A stretch of DNA of 22,384 bases, taken from a virus. Below, one piece after another: positions 15,008-21,657 of this stretch; position 1 is the first letter of the stretch; each line of letters starts with the position of its first letter. Under the pieces are notes generated by a model, which saw nothing but the letters and a program-made list of their open reading frames with translations, searched no databases and was not told the origin of the DNA. Position numbers and translations under genes: made by a program. The stretch is taken from IMG/VR virus record IMGVR_UViG_3300004448_000480, positions 1 through 22,384 of that record; one strand, written 5' to 3'.

Positions 15008-16876
15008 CTACTTATGATTGAGTGGTATAAATAGGTTCGTTTGCCAGTTTCGACGGCGGCCAAAGAATAGCCAATCCATATGTTCGTCTGCTGTTTTTGG
15101 GAAATCATTGTAGCGATCTTTAACTGTTACCGCTAAACAGTCAAGTATGTTTGATTCTAATTCAATGTGTTTAGGTTCATGCATGTAGTGGCCAAATTGT
15201 TTAGGCATAACGTTTGCTAACTTATCATAATCTCGTAATACTTCAGATGGTACTGTAGCATACAGCTCAGCAAATTGTAGAACTAGATCAACCATAGTAG
15301 GTATATAGTTGTTTGACTGCACAATAGGCATAAAACTGTTAATACCTTTCCATCCACCTTTAATAGTGTAGCCGCCAATTGTGTACAAATTGTATCCTGT
15401 TTCTTTCCACAGCATGTATGCTTCTTTATGTTGTTCAAACCATGTGTTAACAACTGGATCTGATTGTACAAATCTCATTAGGTCAGAATAAAACCTGCTG
15501 TATTTTATATCATAGTACCTGTATAAGTAGTCTGCAATGAGTGTGCTTATCCCGTAACTGTGCATTCCTACTACAAACCAAGAATACTTACTTAGGTCGT
15601 ACATTTCTTTTTCTGTTAATGTGCTAGAACTACTAATGATGTTAATTGATTCTGCTGTTCCGTTGTTTATCTCTTGCTGTACATCGCTAGTAGTTTCATA
15701 AAAATAGTCATATGCTCTAAATGTTTCTATTCCATATGTTTCTTTGTCTTCTACATTCATAGGAGCATTTTCGATCAATTGCAAATAAAAGATATCCATA
15801 TTGATAACATTGTTTTCAAACATTGTGTCAATAACAGCCATCCATGAATTGTATGTTTCGCCTGGCATGCCCATAATGAGTTCTGTCATAATTGGCAAAT
15901 TATATTCTTTTGCTTTTTGTGTAACTAATGCAACACTGTTAATCTTCATGTTATCACGTTTAACATTTTTTAATACTTCAGGTGTTGTTGATTGGAAACT
16001 TGCTGCTGGTGCGTTTTGAATATTAGCATCTAATAACTTTCTACCAATCTGATAAACTGCATCTATATTGTTTTTTGCGTAACTAGCACTAAGAACTGTT
16101 GGGTTGCCTGTTCTTTTATTTGCTTCTATCATGAAGTCTGCTATTTCTAAATCTCGTTTGAACGCACCAAAGTTACTTGCAGTAAAACTAAAATAATGCA
16201 TCTTGTTATCAGCACACCAATTAATCTCATCATGTATTCGTTGCATATGAAACTTATGCATTTTACTTGCTGTTGCACTACCCCAGTCACAGTAAGTACA
16301 CTTGAATGGACAACCTCTGTCCGTTTCTATTGTAGGCACCCATTCTATATCAGGGTTTGCTTCTATTAAACTATCAAATACTCCTGTTAAATACGGACTC
16401 GGTAAGTTGTCTAGTTCTTTTATTCTTTCGAACTGTAATGTTTTAGGCAAGTCCTCGTCTGCAATAATATTTCGCATAACTGCAAGTGCCGCTTGTTCCC
16501 CTTCGTTAATTGCTATAGAGTCTATGTATGGATGATCGTTAAAAAAGTTTTTATCTCGCCATGGTATTTCAGGGCCGCCGGCTACAATGATAATATCTGG
16601 ATTAAGTTTTTTGAGAGTTTTTAATAATTTGTAGCAGTAATTAATATTCCACATATACATACTGCAAAACACTACGTCACATTCAATGAGTTGCTCAACT
16701 GCATCACCTATTAACGGTCTTTGAAATATCCAACTGTGTATTTTAAAGTTATCTTGTATATCCTTATATTGATATACATAACTCCATAGACAGCCTAACG
16801 TATAAGGCAAGTACCAACTGTTTAAATGTTTTGGACCTGTCAGAAAATTTGGCTGTACTAATCCTACGGTTTTCAT
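15008..16876 (-). CDS. Radical SAM protein with B12-binding-like N-terminal domain
   Basis: A 622-aa enzyme. The N-terminal part (about 1-140) has the Rossmann-like layout of B12-binding domains seen in this superfamily, with VAGGPEIP (98-105) and NEGEQA (124-129). The cobalamin-ligating DxHxxG motif is not visible. The radical SAM core carries the cluster motif CPFKCTYC (C189, C193, C196) followed by DWGSA. About 250 C-terminal residues, rich in Tyr and Trp, are unassigned. Such enzymes carry out methylations, cyclisations or other radical steps, often on lipids, sugars or cofactors; the substrate is unknown. The ATG overlaps the epimerase stop as ATGA, so the two genes are translated together and may act on one pathway, perhaps surface polysaccharide. 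Confidence 0.88.
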   Translation of the reverse strand: MKTVGLVQPNFLTGPKHLNSWYLPYTLGCLWSYVYQYKDIQDNFKIHSWIFQRPLIGDAVEQLIECDVVFCSMYMWNINYCYKLLKTLKKLNPDIIIVAGGPEIPWRDKNFFNDHPYIDSIAINEGEQAALAVMRNIIADEDLPKTLQFERIKELDNLPSPYLTGVFDSLIEANPDIEWVPTIETDRGCPFKCTYCDWGSATASKMHKFHMQRIHDEINWCADNKMHYFSFTASNFGAFKRDLEIADFMIEANKRTGNPTVLSASYAKNNIDAVYQIGRKLLDANIQNAPAASFQSTTPEVLKNVKRDNMKINSVALVTQKAKEYNLPIMTELIMGMPGETYNSWMAVIDTMFENNVINMDIFYLQLIENAPMNVEDKETYGIETFRAYDYFYETTSDVQQEINNGTAESINIISSSSTLTEKEMYDLSKYSWFVVGMHSYGISTLIADYLYRYYDIKYSRFYSDLMRFVQSDPVVNTWFEQHKEAYMLWKETGYNLYTIGGYTIKGGWKGINSFMPIVQSNNYIPTMVDLVLQFAELYATVPSEVLRDYDKLANVMPKQFGHYMHEPKHIELESNILDCLAVTVKDRYNDFPKTADEHMDWLFFGRRRNWQTNLFIPLNHK

Positions 16877-17787
16877 TGCTTAATTTTTTTATACCAATAC
16901 TCTACAGTTTGTTGTATACCTGCATCTAGTGTCCAGTCCGGCTTCCATCCGAGCATTTTTGTTAGTTTACGATGACTACTATTCAGTAAATAAATCTCAC
17001 CTGGGCGTTCTGGTTTCTGATCCCATAAGATATTACCGTCCCATCCTAAGTGATATGCAATCAACTGTGCATAGTCTTTAATTTTAATTGCGTTATCTGG
17101 TCCTAAACAAAATATTTCGCCAGCTGCTTTATCAGGATTTTCTATGATGGTTCTCCATGCACTAAGTAAATCTTCAATATATATAAAATTTCTATAAGGT
17201 TCTGCATAGCCTAATGATATTTGATGTGGGTTTTTAATCATTTGAGTAATAATTTGCTCTGTTACAAAAAAATCATTGTCTTTTCTGCCGTAACAATTTG
17301 TTTGTCTAATAGCAGTAAAAGGCAATCCGTAACTTCTATGTGCATACTCTAAGTATTTTTCACATGCATACTTAGCAACGGCATATGGTGCATTAGGATT
17401 AGGCTGAGTGTCTTCGTCAAATGCTATAACATAGTTCTCTTTACCGTCTCTAATTAGATCACTAATTGGTTGCCAGCCGTATACTTCCATTGTACTAGCA
17501 AAAACAAAATTCTTTAAGTGTTTTAAGTCTCTACAACTTTCGATTAAGTTTACAGTTCCCACATAGTTAATTTCACTAAATGTTATTTGCTCATAAAAAC
17601 TTTGTTCTACTTCTGTTCTTGCGGCTAAATGTACAACAATCTCAGGATCAAAATCTTTTATTTGTTTAGATACTTCCTCGTGGTCTCTTAAATCAGCATC
17701 TAGCAAACAGATATCGTGTCGTAATGATAATTCCGGGACCATATGTTGTCCAATAAAGCCATCGCCGCCTGTAATAAAAATTCTCAT
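16873..17787 (-). CDS. NAD-dependent sugar-nucleotide epimerase/dehydratase
   Basis: Extended short-chain dehydrogenase. Visible are the NAD-binding GGDGFIG (G7, G10, G13), D30 at the end of the second strand, HLAA (53-56), the catalytic S98/T99 in FASTMEVYG and the Y135xxxK139 pair (YAVAK). Later family segments are RQTNCYG, RNFIYIEDL and LGWKPDWTL. Length (304 aa) is typical. It would act on a nucleotide-activated sugar; the exact sugar cannot be told. It opens the minus-strand block from a late motif at 17815-17822 with AAGGA before ATG. It is coupled by ATGA to the radical SAM gene. A likely role is altering host surface sugars or modifying a phage component. Confidence 0.92.
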   Translation of the reverse strand: MRIFITGGDGFIGQHMVPELSLRHDICLLDADLRDHEEVSKQIKDFDPEIVVHLAARTEVEQSFYEQITFSEINYVGTVNLIESCRDLKHLKNFVFASTMEVYGWQPISDLIRDGKENYVIAFDEDTQPNPNAPYAVAKYACEKYLEYAHRSYGLPFTAIRQTNCYGRKDNDFFVTEQIITQMIKNPHQISLGYAEPYRNFIYIEDLLSAWRTIIENPDKAAGEIFCLGPDNAIKIKDYAQLIAYHLGWDGNILWDQKPERPGEIYLLNSSHRKLTKMLGWKPDWTLDAGIQQTVEYWYKKIKQ

Positions 17788-17822: not shown

Positions 17823-17841
17823 TGTCGGCGTTTTGAATCTT

Positions 17842-17849
17842 GATAAATA
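17842..17849 (+). promoter_or_regulatory. Late promoter motif GATAAATA, 5 nt before ATG
   Basis: The string GATAAATAGTGTTATG joins the motif to the start of the gp14-like gene. There is no Shine-Dalgarno, and the predicted +1 is the A of ATG at 17855. It forms the rightward half of a divergent late promoter. Confidence 0.7.
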
Positions 17850-17854
17850 GTGTT

Positions 17855-18916
17855 ATGCCAAAGTTATCGTTATGGAATCCCACAAAGACAAACGATTTTG
17901 ATTTTATTGATCGAATCGTTGGTGAGCACCTCCACGCTGGGGGTACTGGTGTGCATTTGCACAAATATTTAGGTACTCAGGCTATTGCGGACACAAATGA
18001 CCCTACTAGACCTGGAACTGACGGAAACAATAGCGAAGTTTTTATACAAGACTTATTGTTCCTGGAAAATAGAGATAGACGTTACGATAAGAACGTATAC
18101 GAACTGCGTGGGCAATACAACATTGGCGACAACGATGGTTTTGATCTTACACAGTTTGGTATGTTTTTAGCAAACGATACACTGTTTATGAATTTTCATA
18201 TCGAAAGCATGGTTGAAGCAGTAGGCAGAAAATTAATGGCAGGTGATGTAATAGAATTACCTCATTTACGAGATGATTTATTACTAGGCAGTGATGAGGC
18301 AATAAACAGATTTTATGTTGTTACCGATGCTAGTAGACCTGCAGAAGGATTTGACCCACGTTGGTGGCCACATTTATGGAGAGTTAAGTTAGGTCCTATT
18401 ACAGATTCACAAGAGTACAGAGATATTCTTGGCACTGGCGAAGAAGAGGGAGATCTTCGTAACCTCATTAGTACATATGCAGACGAAATTGCAATCAGTG
18501 AGGCTATATCAGAAGCAGCCGAATCAGATGTGCCGTTTGATTCTAAACTTAATAATACAGCACATTTATATGTAGACGAAGAGGCAAAAGGCAAGCCTAG
18601 AATTGATTTTGCTGGGCAAGACGGCTCTGCACCAAACGGTGCTACTATTGTAGGCAGTGGGGTATCATTCCCAACTACCGGCACTAATGACGGCGATTAC
18701 TTTTTGCGTACAGACTTTGTGCCTAACAGATTATTTGAAAAGCAAGGAACACGATGGAAGTTTGTTAAGTCAAATACTAAAGGTGCATGGACTGCTGCAA
18801 ATAAAATACTTGCAGGATTCATTAATAACGAGAATCTTGTTACTAACACAGATGGGCAAATTACTGGAGAGAAAGTCAATCTTAGCCAAGTAGTTAAACC
18901 CAAAACAGATAACTAA
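17855..18916 (+). CDS. 14: gp14-like neck protein
   Basis: Structural protein of the head-tail neck, by resemblance of order and spacing to gp14 of T4-like phages. Segments GTGVHLHKYLG (30-40), FDLTQFGMFLANDTLFMNF (96-114), RKLMAGDVIELP (125-136) and FYVVTDASRPAEGFDP (153-168) correspond to the IYIPR, FGM, EGDLIYFP and DPFYQLG regions of gp14. At 353 aa it is longer than T4 gp14 (256 aa). The extra C-terminal part holds a GDYFLRTDF...RW repeat (280-301) like those in gp18. I start it at ATG 17855, because the upstream in-frame TTG (17840) would overlap the late motif. First gene of the plus-strand operon. Confidence 0.65.
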   Translation: MPKLSLWNPTKTNDFDFIDRIVGEHLHAGGTGVHLHKYLGTQAIADTNDPTRPGTDGNNSEVFIQDLLFLENRDRRYDKNVYELRGQYNIGDNDGFDLTQFGMFLANDTLFMNFHIESMVEAVGRKLMAGDVIELPHLRDDLLLGSDEAINRFYVVTDASRPAEGFDPRWWPHLWRVKLGPITDSQEYRDILGTGEEEGDLRNLISTYADEIAISEAISEAAESDVPFDSKLNNTAHLYVDEEAKGKPRIDFAGQDGSAPNGATIVGSGVSFPTTGTNDGDYFLRTDFVPNRLFEKQGTRWKFVKSNTKGAWTAANKILAGFINNENLVTNTDGQITGEKVNLSQVVKPKTDN

Positions 18917-18934: not shown

Positions 18935-19405
18935 ATGTTTTTTGGAAAAGATACAAAACTAGATCGCGAAGCGGTTTTTGAACAATTAAAAATAGACGAA
19001 GGAGTAGTAAATGAAATTTATAAAGATCATTTGGGCTACCCAACTTTCGGAGTTGGCCACCTGGTCCTCGAATCTGATCCAGAGTTTGGACAACCAGTGG
19101 GAACACCAGTATCAGAAGAACGAACAAAAGAGTGTTTCGAGAAAGACCTTGATACAGCAATATCTGAATGCGAATTACTATACGAAGACGGATTCTTCGG
19201 AGACTTGCCAGACGAAGTCCAGCAAATCTTAGTTAATATGATGTTTAACATGGGCAGGACTAGACTAAGCAAGTTTAAAAAGATGCATGCCGCTATTATA
19301 GAAAGCGATTGGAAAACAGCCGCAGTAGAAGGTAGAGACAGCAGATGGCATCAACAAGTAACTAGCCGTGCTGAAAGATTAATGAAACGACTGGAAGAAG
19401 TCTAA
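18935..19405 (+). CDS. T4-type lysozyme (glycoside hydrolase family 24)
   Basis: Muramidase that cleaves the MurNAc-GlcNAc bond of peptidoglycan. The catalytic triad is present at T4 spacing: E22 in IDEG, D31 in YKDHLGYPT and T37, followed by FGVGH. Further matches are the MMFNMG segment and the RAERLMKRLEEV end. At 156 aa it equals a full T4 endolysin (164 aa) with no tail-spike or hub fusion. No signal peptide is seen, so release would need a holin, none of which is recognised here. AAAGGAAAG precedes ATG. Lying between neck and tail-completion genes, it could be the lysis enzyme or a virion-borne lysozyme; gene content alone does not decide. Confidence 0.95.
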   Translation: MFFGKDTKLDREAVFEQLKIDEGVVNEIYKDHLGYPTFGVGHLVLESDPEFGQPVGTPVSEERTKECFEKDLDTAISECELLYEDGFFGDLPDEVQQILVNMMFNMGRTRLSKFKKMHAAIIESDWKTAAVEGRDSRWHQQVTSRAERLMKRLEEV

Positions 19406-19411
19406 GGTATT

Positions 19412-19855
19412 ATGGAAGAGATGAGAGACCTAAACGAACAACGAGTTTGTGAATTATTAAATGACATAGTTGAGCTAGAGATGGCTGGTGTTGTTAGATA
19501 TGCACATAGCTCATTAATGATTACAGGTCCGTATAGAATACCTATTGTAACATTCTTACAAGAACAAGCAAATGAAAGTTTGCAACATGCACTACAAGCA
19601 GGTGAATTTATTACAGGCTTTGAAGGACACCCAAGTCAAAAGATTTCAAAGATAGAAGAAAATCACGATCATAGTATATTGCAAATACTTACAGAAAGTT
19701 TAGAACACGAATTGAATGCTGTCAGCAAGTACAAGGAACTATTAAATGAAGTTGCTGATGCAAGTATTATGCTAGAAGAATATGCTAGAGGACAAATTGG
19801 CATGGAAGAACAACATGCATTAGAGATTAAGAAGATGCTCAAGGACTTTGGGTAA
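19412..19855 (+). CDS. Bacterioferritin-like (ferritin-superfamily) protein
   Basis: A 147-aa four-helix-bundle protein, aligning without large gaps to bacterioferritin. Likely di-iron ligands are E23 (EMAGVVRY), E55/H59 (ESLQHA), E100 (EHELNAV) and E132/H135 (EEQH). E55 and H59 are four apart rather than the three of classical bacterioferritin, as in a bacterial subfamily I recall with a DESLLHA-type motif. The stretch FEGHP (70-74) lies where bacterioferritin has LEGLP. No haem Met at the usual place is certain. It could oxidise and store iron or guard DNA from peroxide. It starts 6 nt after the lysozyme stop (TAAGG acts as Shine-Dalgarno) and ends 15 nt before gp15, inside a late structural operon. 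Confidence 0.88.
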   Translation: MEEMRDLNEQRVCELLNDIVELEMAGVVRYAHSSLMITGPYRIPIVTFLQEQANESLQHALQAGEFITGFEGHPSQKISKIEENHDHSILQILTESLEHELNAVSKYKELLNEVADASIMLEEYARGQIGMEEQHALEIKKMLKDFG

Positions 19856-19870
19856 CAAAGGTAATATATA

Positions 19871-21220
19871 ATGGCAAAGAAAAATTTAGATTACTGGTAC
19901 GACGGACAAGTAAAAAGATACTTGCAACAACTTATCAGAATCTTTTCACATTTTCAGGTAGCAGAAAATACATCTAATGGTGTAAACTATAACACTGTGC
20001 CTTGTCGTTATGCAGATCAAAGTAGAATGGTTGCACAAATATTGCGTAACAATTCAGAGAATGCAATTAGCAGTGCTCCTTTTATAGCATGTAGTATTCA
20101 AAGTTTACAAGTTGCTAGAGATCGAATACACGATCCAAACTTTGTTAGCACTTCACAAGTTGCAGAAAGAGAATTCAATACAGCCACTGGGCAATATGAA
20201 CCTACACAAGGAAATTTATATACTGTACAGCGATACATGCCGGTACCGTACAACTTAACTTTACAAGTAGATATATGGACTACTAATACAGATACTAAAT
20301 TACAGATAATGGAACAATTAATGATATTGTTTAATCCTACTATCCAGTTACAGTCAAATGATAACCCATTAGATTGGAGTAATGTATTTGAAGTTGAATT
20401 AACAGATGTAGCATGGAGTAGCAGAAGTGTACCGCAAGGTGTAGATGAAACAATAGATATTGCAACTATGAGTTTTGCTGTTCCTATTTGGATTAATCCT
20501 CCTGCTAAAGTTAAAAAGCAAGCCATTATACAACAAATTATTACAGACATTCACGAAACAAACAATATAGAGGACTTAGGATTTGATACAGATCTCGCAG
20601 ACTTCTTTAAACAAGTACCTGATACAGCAGAAATTGTTACTACACCCGGTGATTACAAATTACAAATTGACGGTGCTAGTGCTGTATTACTAGACAGTGC
20701 ATATAATGGTGTTGTCTGGGCAGACTTAATTGAGATGCAGGGAGAGATAACTGCTACTAGTAAACTTAAATTAAATCTTACTAACGACAGTGATAACGAT
20801 TTAGATGCTGTTATAGGAAGTGTAGCCTTAAACACGTTAGATCCTACAAAACTTATATTTAACATTGATCCAGAAACATTACCTGCAGACACACTGAGTA
20901 ATGTAGATAAAATATTAGACCCTAGGGCATCATATCCAGGGGATGGAAATTTAATTGCGGAAGCAACAGGACAGCGATATTTAATTACAGAAGACATTAC
21001 TAAAACAGGATATCCTAATTGGGATATTGATGCTAGTGAAAATGATATTATAGAATACGATGGCACTAAATGGCTCGTGGTATTCGATGCCAGCACAATA
21101 GATGCTTTGCATTACACAACAAACACATATACATCGAAGCAATACAAATGGTACAATAGTTCGTGGGTTAGCAGTCACGAAGGTGTTTACAACACAGGAT
21201 TTTGGCGTTTGTTGCTTTAA
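19871..21220 (+). CDS. 15: gp15 tail completion / sheath stabiliser protein, extended
   Basis: Caps the finished tail and binds the neck. Residues 1 to about 235 follow T4 gp15: YWYDGQVKRYLQQLIRIFSH (8-27), VPCRYADQSRM (43-53), YMPVPYNLTLQVDIWTTNT (122-140), QIMEQLMILFNPTIQ (145-159) and IWINPP (206-211). T4 gp15 has 272 aa; this protein has 449. The added C-terminal 200 residues include NDIIEYDGTKWLVVFDAS (391-408) and a YKWYNSSW to FWRLL end (425-448), modules of the same Trp-ended kind found in gp18 and the gp14-like protein. AAAGG lies 8 nt before ATG. Confidence 0.9.
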   Translation: MAKKNLDYWYDGQVKRYLQQLIRIFSHFQVAENTSNGVNYNTVPCRYADQSRMVAQILRNNSENAISSAPFIACSIQSLQVARDRIHDPNFVSTSQVAEREFNTATGQYEPTQGNLYTVQRYMPVPYNLTLQVDIWTTNTDTKLQIMEQLMILFNPTIQLQSNDNPLDWSNVFEVELTDVAWSSRSVPQGVDETIDIATMSFAVPIWINPPAKVKKQAIIQQIITDIHETNNIEDLGFDTDLADFFKQVPDTAEIVTTPGDYKLQIDGASAVLLDSAYNGVVWADLIEMQGEITATSKLKLNLTNDSDNDLDAVIGSVALNTLDPTKLIFNIDPETLPADTLSNVDKILDPRASYPGDGNLIAEATGQRYLITEDITKTGYPNWDIDASENDIIEYDGTKWLVVFDASTIDALHYTTNTYTSKQYKWYNSSWVSSHEGVYNTGFWRLLL

Positions 21221-21225
21221 GAGGA
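21221..21225 (+). promoter_or_regulatory. Shine-Dalgarno that fixes the Nudix start
   Basis: GAGGA right after the gp15 stop codon lies 6 nt before ATG at 21232. An in-frame TTG at 21202 lies inside gp15 and has no such site, so the ATG is preferred. Confidence 0.8.
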
Positions 21226-21231
21226 AAGCAA

Positions 21232-21657
21232 ATGACTACAGCAGCAGGAGTTTTATTTCTTGCTAAAGACACAGGGAGATGTCTTTTTCAATTAAGAAAA
21301 GCAGACAAGCGATTTAAAAATACATGGGGTTTCTGGGGAGGCACTATGCATAAAGCGGAAACACCGTATACTTGTATTCAACGAGAACTAAAAGAAGAAA
21401 TTGGGTTCGTTCCAGAACTACAAAAGTTAAATCCTATAGATGTATTCCAAAGCAAAGATAAAAAGTTCTTTTACTATAGTTTTATATATGTAGTAGAGGA
21501 AGAATTTTCACCAATACTAAATGACGAAAGTGCAGGGTACTGCTGGGTAGACATTGACTGGTGGCCTACTCCGTTGCACACTGGTGCAAAAGTTACTCTT
21601 GTTAACAATAAAGGTGCAGAGAAAATACATACTATACTAGAAGTAAACTCCGGATAA
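21232..21657 (+). CDS. Nudix hydrolase
   Basis: Hydrolyses a nucleoside diphosphate linked to another moiety, with Mg2+. The Nudix box is perfect: G37, five residues, E43, seven residues, then RELKEEIGF (51-59). The 141-aa length is that of a single-domain enzyme. The preceding segment LFQLRKADKRFKNTWGFWGG fits the usual substrate-side strand, and the Trp-rich C-terminus (CWVDIDWWPTPL, 104-115) is the variable specificity region. Possible substrates include oxidised nucleotides, NDP-sugars, NADH and RNA 5' ends; none can be chosen. It follows gp15 by 11 nt on the plus-strand operon. Confidence 0.93.
   Translation: MTTAAGVLFLAKDTGRCLFQLRKADKRFKNTWGFWGGTMHKAETPYTCIQRELKEEIGFVPELQKLNPIDVFQSKDKKFFYYSFIYVVEEEFSPILNDESAGYCWVDIDWWPTPLHTGAKVTLVNNKGAEKIHTILEVNSG

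Follow-up and report, generated by a model that had tools for sequence, protein, structure and literature searches.

A gene for a ferritin-fold protein lies within a run of phage structural genes, and the locus raises the question of what a phage would do with such a protein. Iron limits growth widely in the ocean, and phage use of host iron has so far mostly been a matter of speculation about tail proteins. Here, we analysed the 22,384-nucleotide stretch of DNA from a large tailed phage that carries the gene (hereafter the window), together with its viral and cellular relatives. The protein is referred to as FTN.

An intact gene between lysozyme and gp15

The FTN open reading frame is intact, with an ATG start codon at 19412 and a TAA stop codon at 19853-19855. 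The gene and its immediate neighbours are as follows.

17840..18916, + strand: virion structural protein (vsp), first gene of the rightward run; PHROG 11591, E 2e-92
18935..19405, + strand: phage lysozyme, directly upstream of FTN; PF00959, E 3.2e-09; PHROG 13211, baseplate hub and tail lysozyme
19404..19407, + strand: probable ribosome-binding site of FTN, AAGG, overlapping the lysozyme stop codon; predicted from the sequence
19412..19855, + strand: ferritin-fold gene FTN; 147 aa, four-helix bundle only; candidate ligands E23, E55, H59, E100, E132 and H135
19871..21220, + strand: gp15-like tail sheath stabiliser, directly downstream of FTN; PF16724 (T4 gp15), E 1.6e-29; PHROG 11196
21202..21657, + strand: NUDIX hydrolase, after gp15; PF00293, E 8.6e-17

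The junction formed by the lysozyme stop codon and AAGG is retained in most of the closest relatives of the window. The T4-type late promoter sequence, TATAAATA, occurs once in the window. Since 3.1 occurrences are expected by chance, this match is not evidence for a promoter. FTN matched no family in PHROGs.

Elsewhere in the window, a fatty acid desaturase gene (PF00487; 5900-6622, - strand) is found amid structural genes. There are also genes for a B12-binding radical SAM protein (15008-16876, - strand) and a sugar-nucleotide epimerase/dehydratase (16873-17787, - strand). This pair is present in some relatives and missing from others at the same spot.

FTN has a ferritin fold without helix E

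FTN belongs to the ferritin superfamily; it matches the Pfam family Ferritin (PF00210) with an E value of 2.3e-14 and a score of 54 bits (cut-off 24.5). An AlphaFold2 model, built from a 34-row alignment, has a mean pLDDT of 94 and contains four helices (residues 9-36, 43-69, 89-114 and 119-146). There is no helix in the B-C loop (residues 70-88), and the chain ends at helix D, so helix E is absent. The solved structures most similar to the model are all di-iron proteins of the ferritin family: 2qqy (Z 21.7), the mini-bacterioferritin 9qq4/9qq5 (Z 21) and DpsL 8w1e (Z 20). The top group also includes DpsL 8w1d and 2vzb, a 'thioferritin', and is closely followed by ordinary bacterioferritins and Dps. 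Helix bundles generally score high in fold comparisons, and sequence profiles independently reach the same proteins (8w1d, the best match among solved structures, E 2e-10; 9qq4, E 1e-9). A preliminary description of the locus had proposed a complete ferritin-fold protein between lysozyme and gp15. The PF00210 match, the four-helix model and the flanking PF00959 and PF16724 matches bear this out.

DNA protection was among the roles first suggested for the protein, and a four-helix subunit predicted to lack helix E would be compatible with a Dps-like 12-mer. FTN could then act in the manner of Dps, by coating phage DNA to protect it. However, FTN is acidic (pI 4.7, net charge -15) and has no basic N-terminal tail, its 70-88 loop has no BC helix, and its metal ligands fit a site within the subunit, whereas the di-iron site of Dps lies between subunits. 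Hence, protection of DNA by Dps-like binding is not favoured, and we consider it highly improbable.

The predicted di-metal site is modified

The ferroxidase ligands of the mini-bacterioferritin Mper-mBfr are Glu16, Glu49, His52, Glu91, Glu124 and His127, and are hydrogen-bonded by Tyr23 and Tyr98 (PMC13168243). Five of the six ligands have counterparts in FTN. Thus, E23, H59, E100, E132 and H135 align with Glu16, His52, Glu91, Glu124 and His127, and are invariant across the rows compared. The second-shell tyrosines correspond to Y30 and Y107, both also invariant. The sixth ligand (Glu49 of Mper-mBfr, Glu51 of bacterioferritin) falls on S56, with E55 one residue earlier, and this generates the spacing E-x3-H. 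Helix B of FTN was aligned gap-free to 9qq4, 8w1d and 2qqy. Mapping onto E. coli bacterioferritin gave the same correspondences as the PDB chains.

E55 and H59 are invariant in 81 of 81 rows of the close set (phages and nearest cellular copies) and in 29 of 29 rows of a wider set, in two rows of which S56 is replaced by Ala. The preliminary count of five to six plausible iron ligands was thus fair; five align with the mini-bacterioferritin set and the sixth falls on S56. The suggestion that E-x3-H denotes a subfamily whose metal site differs from that of E. coli bacterioferritin also holds and, as judged from the alignments, the motif is a true subfamily mark.

Since the equivalent of Glu51 is Ser56, the canonical ferroxidase site is not intact, and this counts against a role for FTN in handling iron. 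The altered site also makes a non-storage di-metal enzyme of ferritin fold (an oxidase, peroxide scavenger or Mn/Fe protein) the strongest rival explanation, with E-x3-H doing other chemistry. The pairing of Ser or Ala at the Glu51 position with an invariant E55 is consistent with such an enzyme. Residues H32, H73, H87, H99 and E133 are invariant too and suggest a different metal environment, and cellular FTN genes are not part of a fixed iron operon. Conversely, FTN keeps five of the mini-bacterioferritin ferroxidase ligands as well as the two second-shell tyrosines, and iron-sulfur genes are close to FTN in phages (see below). We regard a non-storage enzyme as possible but unlikely.

FTN is a haem-free relative of mini-bacterioferritins

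Mini-bacterioferritins consist of a four-helix bundle only, without N- or C-terminal extensions, and DpsL has an extra helix in the B-C loop (PMC13168243). FTN, with neither a BC nor an E helix, has the mini-bacterioferritin build, and its similarity to Mper-mBfr (9qq4/9qq5) extends over 135 residues. The five shared ligands and two tyrosines add to the likeness, as does G39, which is invariant and equivalent to Gly34; Gly is typical of 12-mers. Judging from the four-helix-only build, FTN probably assembles as a 12-mer. Several features differ. Identity is 23%, the haem ligand position Met52 is L57 in FTN (invariant in the 81 and 29 rows), His29 is replaced by S34 (Ala in some rows), and Ser56 preceded by Glu55 takes the place of the Glu51 equivalent.

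Other solved proteins are less similar in one respect or another. The best fold match, the Bacillus anthracis ferritin-like di-iron protein 2qqy (rmsd 1.5 over 137 residues), is 20% identical and retains E-x2-H in helix B, whereas FTN has E-x3-H. DpsL PA4880 (8w1d/8w1e), the best sequence match among solved structures, shares a bacterioferritin-type intra-subunit site. DpsL differs from FTN in possessing a BC helix and, often, tails, and 8w1d has a canonical six-ligand site with E-x2-H rather than E-x3-H with S56 at the Glu position. E. coli bacterioferritin shares the fold and five of its six di-iron ligands (E18, E51, H54, E94, E127 and H130). Its E51 falls on S56, and its helix E and haem Met52 have no counterpart in FTN. 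Phage-encoded ferritin folds are also present in BFVD (e.g. A0A8D9C9X5 and Dps-like proteins), but these are at most 17% identical to FTN, and many are Dps-like or in longer fusions.

FTN fully fits none of the five ferritin classes tabulated in PMC13168243, and the fairest description is of a haem-free relative of the mini-bacterioferritins. It represents a kind of mini-ferritin whose metal site has been altered. The fold and most di-iron ligands of a bacterioferritin are in place; the name bacterioferritin itself is too specific, given the missing haem Met and helix E.

FTN is found at two genomic positions

A single-sequence scan identified 42 viral FTN loci and an alignment scan identified 69, of which one is marginal (45% over 38 residues), leaving about 68. 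No record searched had more than one match. The loci occupy two positions, with L148 counted in neither. At position A, found in the window and about 20 independent contigs, all close kin of the window, the order is vsp-lysozyme-FTN-gp15-nudix, usually with equal spacing. FTN is not an assembly artefact, because the same lysozyme-FTN-gp15 order recurs in these independent contigs. Absence from all related phages, with assembly breaks on either side, had been named as grounds for doubting the gene; this is not what we find.

Position B accounts for about 47 contigs, one of them 340 kb in length. Here, the order is coiled-coil protein-ClpX-S21-like-CT-cupin-(cytochrome c)-FTN, where CT-cupin denotes cytidylyltransferase-cupin. 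The terminases of three position-B records are 65-72% identical to that of the window. Hence, position-B phages are relatives of the window phage and not unrelated viruses. In most position-B phages, the gene that separates ClpX from CT-cupin encodes the S21-like ribosomal protein (PF01165, 136 aa; L022:4803-5210).

In relatives where the gp15 region was read (L066, L176-L183), vsp directly abuts gp15 and nudix follows, so that lysozyme and FTN are both missing from this interval. Two records with this neck order, G010 and G061, carry FTN far away at position B. Agrobacterium phage Atu_ph07 has a lysin, and no annotated gene separates it from the gp15-like gene. A tblastn search with FTN against 50,697 phage records gave no match, so no isolate contributed a locus. 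Taken together, these data indicate that one lineage has gained FTN in its neck run. The gp15 match of L180 and L181 (G060/G061; contigs of 217 kb and 340 kb) is in a frame read through one TAG, which could reflect stop-codon reassignment or be an ordinary stop.

These positions bear on a link to the neck, tail or virion, which had been put forward for the gene. FTN might be an iron-carrying virion component, for example one attached near the neck or tail (the 'Ferrojan horse' idea), and the same-strand vsp-lysozyme-FTN-gp15 run in about 20 contigs accords with this. However, the gene is elsewhere in about 47 related phage contigs, whose neck operons, where read, run vsp-gp15-nudix. Phage FTN is no longer than its cellular relatives, with no virion domain or extension added, and is 65-68% identical to SAR86 proteins. 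A special link to the neck or tail is not upheld, and a virion role is very unlikely.

Purifying selection and possible exchange between phages

For FTN, dN/dS between the window and its near relatives was 0.015-0.12 (pairs with estimable dS), and neighbouring genes gave values in the same range. The compared copies of FTN are under strong purifying selection. The 65-68% identity of the nearest cellular copies, and a position that varies among phages, might be expected of a neutral passenger recently picked up from the host, or of an assembly mistake. Such explanations are already contradicted by the dN/dS values and by the breadth of occurrence (about 68 viral loci). The phage copies also form a separate clade and have conserved junctions. 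We find this alternative scarcely credible.

In the FTN tree, rows from positions A and B are interleaved, and on well-supported branches the A label has to change three times or more. Exchange between phages would explain this more readily than several separate insertions into one and the same junction. In the ClpX tree, L204 and L232 (the latter in G023) are grouped among position-B phages. The G023 terminase is 96% identical to that of the window, and the G023 record ends inside CT-cupin. Over 4.3 kb, L204 is 80% identical to L232 at the nucleotide level. In L204 (3986-5191), the CT-cupin stop codon overlaps the start of the next gene, and there is no FTN at this B locus. L204, from a 29-kb fragment without FTN, would thus be compatible with a B site left empty in the position-A lineage. 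A search for a position-A contig complete at both loci yielded none, and the evidence for such a move is indirect.

Iron-sulfur genes accompany FTN in many relatives

SUF iron-sulfur assembly genes are located 4-14 kb from FTN in many position-B contigs. SufB was found in nine of 16 position-B records searched, each time 4-11 kb from FTN, and SufS in all ten searched, which were chosen partly for having SufB. In three records (L253, L254 and L255 of G013, G010 and G061), the run is Hsp20-ClpS-SufB-SufC-SufD-SufS-SufT; a peroxiredoxin follows at some distance, and some other genes are interspersed. Pfam checks covered two of these three, and SufC was assigned from its position and a match to ABC ATPases. 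In some position-B phages, FTN adjoins, or is close to, a gene for an IscS-like protein or a cytochrome c. Phage SufB has a precedent in Microcystis phage MaAM05.

Two further observations count against iron handling. The window and the window-type contigs checked, all of them fragments, yielded neither SufB nor SufS. In cells, FTN has no fixed operon partner. In favour of iron handling, some genomes have the cellular homologue next to a gene for glutaredoxin, aconitase B, FumC or a 2OG-Fe(II) oxygenase. A literature search, too narrow to prove absence, found no relevant paper that links ferritin to phage and SAR86, or to phage SUF.

The family, ligands, selection and neighbourhood of FTN point to iron handling in the cytoplasm. 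The explanation that we prefer, with moderate confidence, is that FTN is a cytoplasmic, haem-free, four-helix mini-ferritin derived from SAR86-type gammaproteobacteria. Its task would be to handle iron in the course of infection and, probably, to support iron-sulfur assembly. According to this model, the gene would have been captured from such bacteria. FTN would oxidise Fe(II) at its intra-subunit di-metal site and hold iron inside the infected cell, so that free iron and peroxide are buffered. It may also serve as a source of iron, or as a safeguard for it, when iron-sulfur assembly encoded by the phage takes place. In the window lineage, placement between lysozyme and gp15 would lead to expression with structural genes; in relatives, the gene is in a region of stress and iron-sulfur genes. 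Iron storage or handling is the best of the options first named for this protein, and the SUF genes near FTN in relatives add support. The conservation of a ferritin across a group of jumbo phages, many of which have a SUF operon close to the gene, points to intracellular iron handling, a testable idea.

Kinship with SAR86 proteins

The nearest cellular FTN proteins are mostly from SAR86-titled contigs (65-68% identity). The SAR86 chromosomal ferritin-like protein (L045-L048, L050-L057) is equal in length to phage FTN and has the same invariant residues, but its gene neighbours are glutaredoxin or aconitase B, not phage genes. Homologues of FTN occur in 28 of 369 gammaproteobacterial genomes; the top three are 65-67% identical and the next 54-56%. 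A full-length CT-cupin match (52-56%) was found in only three of the 369, and these are the same three that have the nearest FTN (phage L041:5218-5991; cellular L192/L193). One of them, G065 (= L053, SCGC AAA168-P09), falls within the clade of SAR86-titled contigs in the FTN tree. The other two are small genomes of 1.2-1.3 Mb.

Because two genes, FTN and CT-cupin, are common to the phages and the same genomes, SAR86 is our leading guess at a host, though gene exchange is not proof of infection. Our searches found no well-described phage of SAR86, which is an abundant marine group, and the FTN/CT-cupin kinship gives a clue to which bacteria these uncultured phages infect. More tentatively, jumbo phages that probably infect SAR86 may carry an iron supply set. 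This would comprise a mini-ferritin that lacks haem, belongs to an undescribed subfamily and has an altered E-x3-H di-metal site, encoded close to a SUF operon and to ClpX/ClpS, Hsp20 and peroxiredoxin. The ferritin gene of one lineage would have moved into the structural gene run.

Within the clade of phage FTNs there is one cellular entry, on a long branch: L044, from a Pseudomonadales MAG (74% identity). This copy (L044:198-635) adjoins rimP/nusA/infB-like genes and starts about 200 bases from the contig end. It may represent a transfer or a binning error.
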